A DNA stretch of 64,000 bases from Reyranella aquatilis (GTDB lineage: Bacteria > Pseudomonadota > Alphaproteobacteria > Reyranellales > Reyranellaceae). The translations under genes were made by a program, and so were the position numbers. The DNA is taken from NCBI RefSeq assembly GCF_020880995.1, contig NZ_JAJISD010000001.1:1054001-1118000 (forward strand). The letters run 5' to 3'. The notes below the pieces were generated by a model. It made no database searches, was not told the origin of the DNA, and was given only the letters and a program-made list of their open reading frames with translations. This document shows, in pieces, positions 48,344-52,499 of the stretch. Each line of letters begins with the position of its first letter. The stretch's first letter is position 1.

Positions 48344-49702
48344 ATGGCGTCAAGCATCAAGCCCGTACACGTCGTCGGTGGCGGCCTCGCAGGCAGCGAG
48401 GCCGCGTGGCAGCTCGTCCAGGCGGGCGTGCCGGTGGTGCTGCACGAGATGCGGCCGGTGCGGGGGACCGAGGCACACCTCACAGACAGCCTCGCGGAGC
48501 TGGTCTGCTCCAATTCCTTCCGCTCGGACGATGCCGCCAACAACGCCGTCGGCGTGATCCACGAGGAGATGCGTCGCGCCGGCTCGCTGATCATGCGCTC
48601 CGCCGACGCGCACAAACTGCCGGCGGGTGGCGCGCTCGCGGTCGACCGGCACGGCTTCTCGGCCGCCGTGCAGGAGGCTCTTCTGGCGCACCCGCTCGTC
48701 ACGCTCGAGCGCGAAGAGGTGGCGGGCCTGCCGCCCGAGGAGTGGGACAGCGTGATCGTGGCGACCGGTCCCCTCACCTCACCGGCGCTCGCCGACGCCA
48801 TCGCCCAACTGACTGGCGAAGACTCGCTGGCCTTCTTCGACGCCATCGCGCCGATCGTGCACTACGAGAGCATCGACCAGTCGATCGCCTGGAAGCAGTC
48901 GCGCTACGACAAGGGCGGCCCCGGCGGTGACGGTGCGGATTACTTCAATTGCCCGATGGACAAGCCGCAATACGAGGCTTTTGTCGCGGCGCTGCTGGCC
49001 GGTGAGAAGACCGAGTTCAAGCAGTGGGAGCACAACACGCCCTACTTCCAGGGCTGCCAGCCGATCGAGGTCATCGCCTCGACCGGCCCGCAGAGCCTGC
49101 GCTTCGGCCCGATGAAGCCGGTCGGCCTGCGCGATCCGCGCACCGGCCATCGCCCCTGGGCCGTGGTGCAACTCCGCCAGGACAATGCGCTGGGCACGCT
49201 GTGGAACATCGTGGGCTTCCAGACCAAGCTGAAGCACGGCGAGCAGACCCGCATCTTCCGCACAATCCCCGGCCTGCAGAACGCTGAGTTCGCGCGGCTG
49301 GGAGGCCTGCACCGCAACACCTTCCTCAACAGCCCGCGCCTGCTGGACGGCACGCTGCGCCTGAAGGCCATGCCGCGACTGCGCTTCGCCGGCCAGATCA
49401 CCGGCTGCGAAGGCTATGTCGAGAGCGCCGCCGTCGGCCTGATGACCGGGCGGTTTGCGGCGGCGGAGCGACTGGGCCGGGTGCAGGCGCCGCCGCCGCC
49501 GACCACGGCGATGGGCGCGTTGCTCGGACACATCACCGGCGGCGCCGACGCCACGACCTTCCAGCCAATGAACATCAACTTCGGCCTGTTCCCGCCCATC
49601 GCTGGCAGCTTCAAGGGCAAGGAGCGCAAGCAGGCGATGGCGGTGCGGGCGTTGCGCGACTTCGACGAGTGGCTGAAGCCGACACCTCTCGCAGCGGAGT
49701 GA
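48344..49702 (+). CDS. trmFO: methylenetetrahydrofolate-tRNA-(uracil-5-)-methyltransferase
   Basis: A 452-residue FAD protein making m5U54 in tRNA from methylenetetrahydrofolate. N-terminal [17 protein letters not shown], the [16 protein letters not shown] active-site cysteine region, [14 protein letters not shown], and [18 protein letters not shown] are diagnostic and distinguish it from GidA. It replaces TrmA in many alphaproteobacteria and Gram-positives. Followed by the TerB/COQ4-like gene after 13 bases. Confidence 0.95.
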
Positions 49703-49715
49703 AACGGGGACAATC

Positions 49716-50681
49716 ATGCGCCTGATGCAGCCGGAGCCCGCCGCCGCTCTTCTCGGGCTGCGCGCCATGAAGACGGTGGCCTCGGCATCGGGCGCCCCGG
49801 GAAAGGCACAACTCGCGCTGATGGAAGCGGCGCGGCGGGTGATTCTTCACATCGATGCCGACATCACTACGCTGTCGCCGATCACGCCAGCCGAACTGGC
49901 CGCAGGCTTCCCGTCGGTCGACCTCCGCCACCAGTTCGTCCATGGGCTGATGGTGCTGGCCTTGGCGGACGGAGTGCCCTCGCGCGAAACCGTCAGCAGG
50001 GTCGAGGCCTTTGCGGAAGCGTTGGGCATCGCCACGCCGGAACTCGCCAACCAGCGGCGACTCGCCGAGCATCACACGACGCTTTTCAAGCTCGACCTGC
50101 TGCGGCGCAGCCAGGTCGGCGACATTCTAAGGAATCAGCTCGACCAGCACGGCGTCCTGGCGCTGGCCAAGAGCGTGCTGGGCATGCGCGGTCTCATGGA
50201 AGACAACGAGCTGGCCGCGCGCTACCGCGCCTGGGAGAGGCTGCCGGCCGGCACGGTCGGCCGGTCGATGTGGGAGTATTTCCAGTCCAACAAGTTCGGC
50301 ATGCCGGGCGAGCGGTTCGGCTTCCCCGAGGCGGGCCTCTATCACGATTTCTGCCATGTGCTGGGCGGCTACGGCACCGATCCGGCGGGCGAACTGCAGG
50401 TCGCGTCGTTCACCGCCGGTTTCAAGCAGACCCGTCCCTTCTACCTGATCCTGTTCGCCGTGCTGATCTTCAGTGCCGGTTTCAATGCCCGGCCGACCGC
50501 CGAGGGCTACACGACCGTCGGCGTGCTCGGTGAACCGGGTGCCGCCGAGCGGATGTTCGCGGCGATCGAGCGCGGCGCCCTCGTGAACACCGATCTCTCC
50601 GACAAATGGGACTATTGGCCCTATGTCGAAATGCCGATCGACGAAGCCCGGCACCGGCTCAATATCGTTCACGCGGCCTGA
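49716..50681 (+). CDS. TerB-like/COQ4-like protein
   Basis: A 321-residue protein. The N-terminal third resembles a TerB helical domain (LRHQFVHGLMVLALADGVPSRETVSRVEAFAEALG). The C-terminal half has YHDFCHVLGGYGTDPAGEL, which fits the HDxxH-x11-E metal motif of COQ4 exactly (His210, Asp211, His214, Glu226). COQ4 acts in ubiquinone synthesis. KQTRPFYLILFAVLIFSAG may contact the membrane. Role in ubiquinone biogenesis is inference. It sits between trmFO and an acyl carrier protein gene. Confidence 0.6.
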   Translation: MRLMQPEPAAALLGLRAMKTVASASGAPGKAQLALMEAARRVILHIDADITTLSPITPAELAAGFPSVDLRHQFVHGLMVLALADGVPSRETVSRVEAFAEALGIATPELANQRRLAEHHTTLFKLDLLRRSQVGDILRNQLDQHGVLALAKSVLGMRGLMEDNELAARYRAWERLPAGTVGRSMWEYFQSNKFGMPGERFGFPEAGLYHDFCHVLGGYGTDPAGELQVASFTAGFKQTRPFYLILFAVLIFSAGFNARPTAEGYTTVGVLGEPGAAERMFAAIERGALVNTDLSDKWDYWPYVEMPIDEARHRLNIVHAA

Positions 50682-50792
50682 ACGGCGGAAACATTCCGTA
50701 ACGTCCCGCAACAGTGGGTAACCAAACGTTATTTCACAGGCGGGGGCCGCCGGAGTGAAATGCCTCATCCCCTTCCCCCGACGGAGTGAAGC

Positions 50793-51083
50793 ATGCAGGC
50801 CGTTCAGGAACTGATCGCCCCCACCGGCGGCGCACCCTCGCTGCAGTTCGACGTGATGCGCGAGATCTTCACGCTGCTGGCCCCCTACAATGTCGGCAGC
50901 AAGCCGATCACCCCGCAGACGGTCATCTCCAAGGGCCTGACCGTCGATTCGCTCACCATCATGGACGTGATCATGGAGCTGGAGGACCGTTTCGACGTCA
51001 CCATCCCCATGAGCGTAGCCGCCAACATCGTAACGATCGACCAGCTCGCCGAGGCCGTGGTTTCGCAGCGCGCGCGTCGCTGA
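50793..51083 (+). CDS. acyl carrier protein
   Basis: A 96-residue carrier protein. The phosphopantetheine serine is in the DSL-type motif GLTVDSLTIMDVIMELEDRFDVTIP, and helix IV and V follow. It is longer at the N-terminus (about 20 residues) than AcpP and more divergent, so it is probably not the housekeeping fatty acid ACP. No ketosynthase or ligase gene is adjacent. GACGGAGTGAAGC precedes the ATG. Confidence 0.8.
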   Translation: MQAVQELIAPTGGAPSLQFDVMREIFTLLAPYNVGSKPITPQTVISKGLTVDSLTIMDVIMELEDRFDVTIPMSVAANIVTIDQLAEAVVSQRARR

Positions 51084-51149: not shown

Positions 51150-52499
51150 ATGACTCCCGCAGAACGCCGGCAGATGATGCTGGCCGGGCCGATCGTGCCC
51201 ACCATCCTCGCCCTAGCGACGCCGAACGTGCTGAACGTGGCCATGCAGAGCCTCGTCAGCATCGCCGACGGCTACTTCATCGGCCAGCTCGGCGTGATCG
51301 ACCTCGCCGCGCTGGCGCTCGTCTTCCCGACCCAGATGACGCTCGGAATGATGTCGGCTGGCGCCATGGGTGGGGGCATCTCCTCCTCGGTGGCCCGCGC
51401 CCTGGGCTCGGGAAACAAGGCGGGCGCCGAGGCCGCGGCGGCGCATGCACTCGCCATCGCCATCGGCATGGCGGCGCTGTTCGGCCTCGTTTTCGTGGGC
51501 TTCGGCCGCCAGATCTACGGCGCCCTCGGCGGCAGCGGTGCCGCGCTCGACCGGGCCGAGGCCTTCGCCACCATCCTGTTCTCCGGCTGCGTCGCCCATT
51601 GGGTCGCCAATTCGATGGCCTCGGTGCTGCGCGGGACCGGCGACATGAAGACTCCGGGCCTTGCCCTGGTCGTCACGGCGGCCATCCAGATCCCGCTTAC
51701 CGGCGCCCTCACGCTGGGCTGGTTCGGCTTGCCCGCCTTCGGCATTCGCGGCCCTGCCATCGCCGCCGTGATCGCCTTCGCCCTCGCCGCACTCTGGATG
51801 CTCTCCAAGCTCACCGGCGAGAAGGCGGCGCTTCGACTGCGCTGGCCGGTCGATGGTTTCCGCTGGCGGGCCTTCCGCGACATCCTGAAGGTCGGCCTGA
51901 TCGCCTGCCTGGTGGTCATCCTGACCAACGGTACCGTGCTGGTCGTTACCGGCCTGATCGGCCGCGAGGGCGACGCCGCCATCGCGGGATACGGTATCGG
52001 CTCGCGGCTCGAATACATGCTGATCCCGATCAGTTTCGGAATCGGCGCGGCCCTCACCGCCCTGGTCGGCACCAACATCGGTGCGAAGCAATATGCCCGC
52101 GCCCAGCGCATGGCCTGGACCGGTGCCCTGATGGCCGGCGCCGTTGCCGCGACCATCGGCGCGATCGTCGCGATCTGGCCCGACCTCTGGCTCGGCCTCT
52201 TCACGACCAATCCGGGCGCGCTGGCCTCGGGCCGCCACTATCTCAGCATCGTCGGCCCCGCCTACGGCTTCTTCGGCCTGGCCATGGCGCTCTACTTCGC
52301 CTCGCAGGGCACGGGTGAGATGATCTGGCCGGTCGGCGCCAACATCACGCGCATCACCATCGCCGGCGGCGGCAGCCTGCTCGCGCTCGACCATTTCGGC
52401 TGGGGCGTGTCGGGCCTCTACGCCTGCGTGGCGCTGGGCATCGTGGCCTTCTCCGCCGTGCTCGCCTTCTCGACGACCAGACGGGCCTGGACCGGCTAA
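51150..52499 (+). CDS. MATE family efflux transporter
   Basis: A 449-residue protein with about 12 transmembrane helices of the MATE multidrug exporter family. MQSLVSIADGYFIGQLG and the repeat in the second half (LEYMLIPISFGIGAALTALVGTNIGAKQYARA) are the typical symmetric motifs. It probably exports cationic or organic compounds with Na+ or H+. Followed by cobF after 33 bases. Confidence 0.9.
   Translation: MTPAERRQMMLAGPIVPTILALATPNVLNVAMQSLVSIADGYFIGQLGVIDLAALALVFPTQMTLGMMSAGAMGGGISSSVARALGSGNKAGAEAAAAHALAIAIGMAALFGLVFVGFGRQIYGALGGSGAALDRAEAFATILFSGCVAHWVANSMASVLRGTGDMKTPGLALVVTAAIQIPLTGALTLGWFGLPAFGIRGPAIAAVIAFALAALWMLSKLTGEKAALRLRWPVDGFRWRAFRDILKVGLIACLVVILTNGTVLVVTGLIGREGDAAIAGYGIGSRLEYMLIPISFGIGAALTALVGTNIGAKQYARAQRMAWTGALMAGAVAATIGAIVAIWPDLWLGLFTTNPGALASGRHYLSIVGPAYGFFGLAMALYFASQGTGEMIWPVGANITRITIAGGGSLLALDHFGWGVSGLYACVALGIVAFSAVLAFSTTRRAWTG

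Follow-up and report, generated by a model that had tools for sequence, protein, structure and literature searches.

The gene at 49716-50681 on the forward strand (gene A), within the 64,000-nucleotide stretch of the Reyranella aquatilis genome that was analysed (the window), encodes a protein in which a TerB-like helical domain precedes a divergent COQ4 domain. This protein almost certainly belongs to the COQ4 superfamily, and it probably does some dispensable lipid-related job other than a step of ubiquinone synthesis. COQ4 is the enzyme that human cells need for coenzyme Q synthesis, whereas Reyranella is a bacterium of soil and water. The host genome has a size of 6.0 Mb and is 99.8% complete, with Reyranella as the nearest named relatives.

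On the basis of the open reading frame and its orthologues, gene A runs from an ATG at 49716 to a stop codon ending at 50681 and encodes 321 aa. A comparison with six orthologues gave a dN/dS of about 0.11-0.14; gene A is therefore a maintained gene under purifying selection. The TerB-like domain covers approximately residues 1-123 (49716-50084, forward strand) and is placed by the TerB profile matches of the relatives and by the structures 2ou3 and 2h5n. Its boundary is approximate, and the structural match to COQ4 begins at residue 104-110. The COQ4 domain (residues 164-321, 50205-50678, forward strand) is delimited by sequence, with the hhalign alignment and the fold match to 6e12_B.

The C-terminal half carries the COQ4 metal motif HDxxH-x11-E exactly (H210, D211, H214 and E226; residues 210-226, 50343-50393, forward strand), as the initial annotation had read it. 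Gene A is the sole bearer of this motif among the six-frame ORFs of at least 60 aa in the window. Shuffling the protein generated the motif in 158 of 200000 shuffles, which makes a chance origin improbable. Furthermore, the motif is found in 24 of 24 aligned canonical Coq4 sequences and is invariant in the 23 aligned TerB-COQ4 relatives, and this invariance settles the question. In the family alignment, which consists of 23 loci picked by hand from six phyla, the invariant positions are H210, D211, H214, Y219, G225 and E226.

The Pfam Coq4 model (PF05019) alone misses gene A, whose protein scores 12.4 bits, on the motif, and does not reach the gathering cut-off of 22.9; no protein of the host genome scores over this cut-off. 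The NCBIfam search of the gene A protein returned solely the co-chaperone DjlA at E 0.17. Meanwhile, 22 of the 23 relatives match Pfam Coq4 at E≤1, the best at 1.8e-5. Profile-profile comparison supports COQ4: hhalign of the family profile against a profile of 24 canonical alphaproteobacterial Coq4 sequences gave a probability of 99.1% and E 4.3e-19 over profile residues 163-318. Against the PDB, the family profile matched the Coq4-like structures 6e12 (E 4.4e-7) and 3msq (E 7.9e-7). Two other candidates, DUF294_C (16.9 bits) and RecC_C (15.2 bits), were rejected, as both are below cut-off and appear in two and one of the 23 relatives, respectively.

For the N-terminal third, which had also been called TerB-like, the support from sequence is weaker, and the assignment leans more on fold. 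The TerB profile (PF05099) has no match in the gene A protein in the Pfam search and matches four of the 23 relatives (best E 0.0031), while the family profile reached the TerB-type structure 2ou3 at E 0.0078. The N-terminal helical bundle is common to the gene A protein, TerB/COG3793 (2ou3) and PG1108 (2h5n), the last of which we take to be a TerB-like structure. Most TerB-COQ4 members also have a short acidic 'DG' turn between helices, as TerB/COG3793 and PG1108 do. The neighbours of gene A include no recognised ter operon.

We compared predicted structures from two branches of the family with solved ones. The AlphaFold model of the gene A protein has a mean pLDDT of 86.6, with residues 260-265 below 50 and residues 131-160 averaging 58-70, and the model of a Nitrospirota relative has a pLDDT of 93.0. 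Foldseek with the gene A model placed 6e12 on top (E 3.3e-4), with 3msq and 2h5n after it. In VIA-align, the gene A model matched 6e12_B at Z 11.5 (158 residues, 4.7 Å), 2h5n at 10.2 and 3msq at 10.0, and the next row fell to 4.4. The Nitrospirota model matched 6e12 at Z 10.8 (165 residues, 5.1 Å), 2h5n and 3msq at 9.7 each, and the tellurite resistance protein 2ou3 at 9.0 (133 residues, 4.8 Å), with the next row at 5.2. We read rows with Z of 5.2 or less as common helical arrangements. Since these folds are mostly helical and middling Z values may arise by chance, what counts most for us is that fold and sequence agree. Both models match 6e12 and 3msq as well as TerB-type structures, and the TerB-like plus COQ4 architecture is predicted in both modelled branches. 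Together with the profile comparison, these fold matches bear out the two-domain identity proposed in the initial annotation.

The gene A protein has the metal motif, an LPxGT/SxG segment and a C-terminal PLxExR segment in common with canonical bacterial and eukaryotic COQ4, but it scores below the Pfam cut-off and adds the N-terminal TerB-like domain. The residues around the motif differ as well. An arginine at position -5 before the motif is present in 24 of 24 aligned canonical Coq4 sequences, a count drawn from 30 loci (29 motif-bearing) that does not cover L157, which gave no motif ORF, or L138, L141, L148, L150 and L158, which were omitted because they were near-copies, had long starts or were divergent fusions. 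In contrast, two of the 23 TerB-COQ4 sequences have this arginine, and the gene A protein has a glutamate there. Canonical Coq4 further shows an arginine at -3 (21 of 24) and an aspartate at -2 (20 of 24), the latter found in none of the 23 TerB-COQ4 sequences. At motif +11, arginine (19 of 24) is replaced by threonine (22 of 23). Judged from these alignments, the TerB-COQ4 family retains the metal site with altered surroundings, and its chemistry may differ from that of COQ4 because the arginine at -5 and the aspartate at -2 are missing. Alphaproteobacterial members of canonical Coq4 score over the Pfam cut-off in 26 of 289 genomes. In L148 and L158, we notice canonical-type Coq4 matches within longer ORFs whose motif surroundings diverge, possibly further fusions.

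Alr8543 (6e12) and Npun02000094 (3msq) are cyanobacterial Coq4-like proteins that share the fold and the HDxxH-x11-E motif with the gene A protein. Like TerB-COQ4, both have threonine rather than arginine at motif +11. They have a length of about 225 aa, carry no TerB-like domain and show 14-19% identity to the gene A model in structural alignments. The PDB title of 6e12 reads 'in complex with Oleic Acid and magnesium ion', and PMC9774615 describes Mg ions at the motif and bound oleic acid in Alr8543.

A search of 61 genomes with the gene A protein found relatives in 27, which are Reyranella without exception. The host genome has a paralogue on contig 26 (paralogue B) with 31% identity to the gene A protein. 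Assigned by identity, A-type genes occur in 18 of the 37 Reyranella genomes and are absent from 19, and B-type genes occur in 27. Paralogue B is present in every Reyranella genome with A, and 10 of the 37 have neither. A scan of named genomes, from which 80 of 97 loci were kept, added carriers among Legionella, Myxococcota, Nitrospirota, Rokubacteria, Acidobacteriota, Methylocystis, Xanthobacter and Synechococcus, among others. In a tree of 37 rows, Reyranella A, Legionella and Myxococcota form an A clade with 100/100 support, and the B clade is separate. In a sample of 398 genomes spread across the phylum, at least two carry the family, both Reyranella. The TerB-COQ4 family is sparse and patchy. 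Neither A nor B matches any of 72,556 plasmid records. The A-type genes of Legionella bononiensis (L083) and L. quateirensis (L084), with 34-35% identity, have no acyl carrier protein neighbour and sit 3' of a two-component system, which was recognised by eye.

In the window, gene A stands between two context genes, trmFO (48344-49702; NCBIfam TrmFO, 669 bits), which ends 13 bp before it, and a MATE-family transporter gene (51150-52499), with the gene of a 96-aa acyl carrier protein (ACP; 50793-51083) before the latter. All four genes lie on the forward strand. The gene neighbourhoods come from a simple gene caller that can miss short genes, such as the ACP gene of G030, which was recovered by tblastn. 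The ACP next to gene A, as initially annotated, is real (PP-binding, 35.6 bits, cut-off 20.8). Of 26 A-type loci, 17 have the ACP next to gene A, a count that first favoured a partnership, while eight of the 26 have no trmFO, ACP or MATE gene in reach. A search for the ACP covered the 61 genomes, and 30 loci were inspected. In 23 of these it stands beside trmFO and/or the MATE gene, with gene A present at 10 and missing from 13. The empty trmFO-ACP site in these 13 loci overturns the idea of a conserved functional pair. Gene A lies elsewhere in the genome in six of them (G012, G014, G019, G025, G032 and G035). In G024, the first 8 bases of the trmFO-ACP spacer are retained, and the sequence after them agrees at 117 of 129 bases with a stretch that starts within the end of gene A and continues past it; this spacer reads as a deletion scar of gene A.

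A palindrome-like element 5' of the ACP gene (50708-50735, forward strand) is conserved with or without gene A. Its core, GGTAACCAAACGTTATTTC, is retained in the trmFO-ACP spacers of Reyranella and forms a perfect inverted repeat in several Reyranella genomes. Allowing at most two mismatches, the element has a single copy in the whole host genome and one in the window, and the chance expectation is none. It may be an operator or a promoter that serves this ACP alone. The A-less sites, the scar and the conserved element together suggest that gene A was placed or lost beside an ACP gene that has its own control region.

Paralogue B (host contig 26) lies in a long neighbourhood (L034:2411-15695) conserved in Reyranella, which contains genes for a thiolase, an SDR, a molybdenum hydroxylase and quinol/cytochrome oxidase subunits, and polysaccharide-deacetylase-like genes named by eye. 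The oxidase neighbourhood was seen solely at Reyranella-type B loci. Of 38 Reyranella-type loci, 37 have the thiolase near B, and in 23 the distance is no more than 31 bp. The same thiolase turned up in 36 of the 37 Reyranella genomes, and the 10 that lack A and B are all among them; no thiolase was found at 11 B-type loci with 41-51% identity to the B of the host. In genome G023 (L227:2681-3039), an internal deletion has cut paralogue B to residues 1-83 and 280-316. Among the TerB-COQ4 loci that were read, none of the neighbouring genes is shared between lineages, which makes any proposed substrate a guess.

The initial annotation suggested that gene A may fill a missing step of alphaproteobacterial ubiquinone synthesis, and the gene content does not support this role. 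The host genome contains UbiD (513.6 bits), UbiA (330 bits, encoded some 5.5 kb away from UbiD), UbiX (229.7 bits) and one UbiH-type hydroxylase (395.3 bits), all over their curated cut-offs. A UbiD-family match occurs in 37 of 37 Reyranella genomes and is full-length (at least 495 bits) in 31, among them all 10 without A and B. Six carriers of A or B (G004, G025, G026, G032, G033 and G034) have UbiD fragments or lower-scoring paralogues only. Most of these six assemblies are incomplete or contaminated, but G025 is 98% complete and has a fragment only. This is a small result against an accessory role outside the C1 step.

Relatives of gene A also occur outside Pseudomonadota, in phyla without known ubiquinone synthesis. 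According to PMC12324825, bacterial ubiquinone is confined to Pseudomonadota, and Nitrospira have methyl-plastoquinones. UbiA scores over cut-off in 11 of 17 genomes tested, Nitrospirota included. Among the 14 carriers outside Reyranella, 10 score at least 245 bits for UbiA, and the other four (two Polyangia, one Rokubacteria and one Acidobacteriaceae) have about 125 bits or less. These data leave room for a link of gene A to benzoquinones in general, and for the other quinone-related task that the initial annotation named as an alternative. The other bacterial C1 routes, UbiD/UbiX and UbiN, belong to families unrelated to gene A, and the proposed reaction alone is similar; UbiN is another aerobic C1 route in Rhodobacter (PMC10626278). 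Unlike canonical bacterial and eukaryotic COQ4, gene A probably does not fill the slot of the C1 step.

Our best explanation, to which we give somewhat less than an even chance, is that gene A encodes a metal enzyme of the COQ4 superfamily with an accessory activity, which acts on a lipid-tailed substrate and not at the C1 step of ubiquinone synthesis. The presence of A in 18 of 37 Reyranella genomes, the scar in G024 and the broken B in G023 argue that the gene is dispensable. The presence of UbiD, UbiX, UbiA and the hydroxylase, and the retention of UbiD without A and B, argue against the C1 step. In such an enzyme, H210, D211, H214 and E226 would quite probably hold a divalent metal, given their invariance and the Mg in Alr8543. 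By analogy with the oleic acid in 6e12, the metal may well sit beside a hydrophobic groove that takes the lipid tail. The metal centre might then decarboxylate the polar head of a lipid-tailed acid, a tentative step modelled on COQ4. We speculate that the TerB-like domain brings the protein to the membrane or to a partner; for DjlA, PMC11709261 likewise offers membrane or lipid contact by a TerB-like domain as a speculation.

It is very improbable that gene A is a bacterial COQ4 performing the C1 decarboxylation or decarboxylation-hydroxylation of a ubiquinone precursor. The COQ4 homology, the intact metal motif and the several carriers with UbiA over or near cut-off would fit this role, and so would the same chemistry in eukaryotes, where Zn-dependent decarboxylation is reported for ancestral animal COQ4 (PMC7615680) and oxidative decarboxylation by human COQ4 is reviewed (PMC11495197). 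However, the host already has UbiA, UbiD, UbiX and the hydroxylase, 19 of the 37 Reyranella genomes lack A and 10 lack A as well as B, the canonical arginine at -5 is lost, relatives extend to lineages where ubiquinone is not known, and UbiA is weak in four of the 14 non-Reyranella carriers. There is a low probability that gene A acts on respiratory quinones outside the core ubiquinone step, as an enzyme that modifies or repairs them, for example in the salvage of damaged quinone or for a side-branch quinone. The strong UbiA-type matches in 10 of these carriers, including Nitrospirota, point in this direction, together with the methyl-plastoquinones of Nitrospira (PMC12324825) and the terminal oxidase and molybdenum hydroxylase near B in Reyranella. 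Yet the two Polyangia, the Rokubacterium and the acidobacterium have no strong UbiA, and the oxidase neighbourhood is confined to Reyranella-type B loci.

On the other hand, the neighbours of A and B might indicate an enzyme of acyl thioesters that works with the ACP (gene A) and the thiolase (gene B), for which we see a slim chance. Adjacency speaks for it at the 17 A-type loci with the ACP and the 37 Reyranella-type B loci with the thiolase. The ACP, however, occurs beside trmFO without A and has its own conserved 5' element, and the thiolase persists in genomes without A and B and is missing at the 11 more distant B-type loci. The thiolase partnership of B is strong within Reyranella, and we keep it as a weak rival. 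An unlikely explanation that still holds an appreciable share is a non-catalytic lipid-binding or scaffold protein with a structural metal site, which would either organise a complex or carry or present a hydrophobic intermediate. COQ4 was long regarded as a scaffold, Alr8543 binds a fatty acid (PMC9774615; 6e12), the TerB-like domain is a possible membrane or lipid contact (PMC11709261), and the canonical flanking arginine is lost. But the four metal-motif residues are invariant over deep divergence, which is more than a purely hydrophobic carrier would need.

We found no published description of the TerB-COQ4 architecture (in PMC10279924, the match to TerB was the word terbinafine), and a mention in a 2012 survey of Ter systems is possible. 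The results caution against giving these genes the name 'ubiquinone biosynthesis protein'. It is possible, if doubtful, that TerB-COQ4 forms a separate, phylum-spanning branch of COQ4 (Pseudomonadota, Myxococcota, Nitrospirota, Acidobacteriota, Rokubacteria and Cyanobacteriota), whose members, with changed surroundings of the active site, would catalyse a metal-dependent reaction of a non-ubiquinone lipid acid. The mechanism of COQ4 has been argued only recently, as a Zn-dependent decarboxylase (PMC7615680) and as an oxidative decarboxylase (work reviewed in PMC11495197). With a bacterial branch that retains the metal site in altered surroundings and occurs where ubiquinone is lacking, the metal chemistry could be examined separately from coenzyme Q, and the role of the fold before or beside coenzyme Q would come to light. 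If the separate branch is true, COQ4 chemistry would extend beyond coenzyme Q synthesis, with eukaryotic COQ4 as a specialised member of the superfamily.
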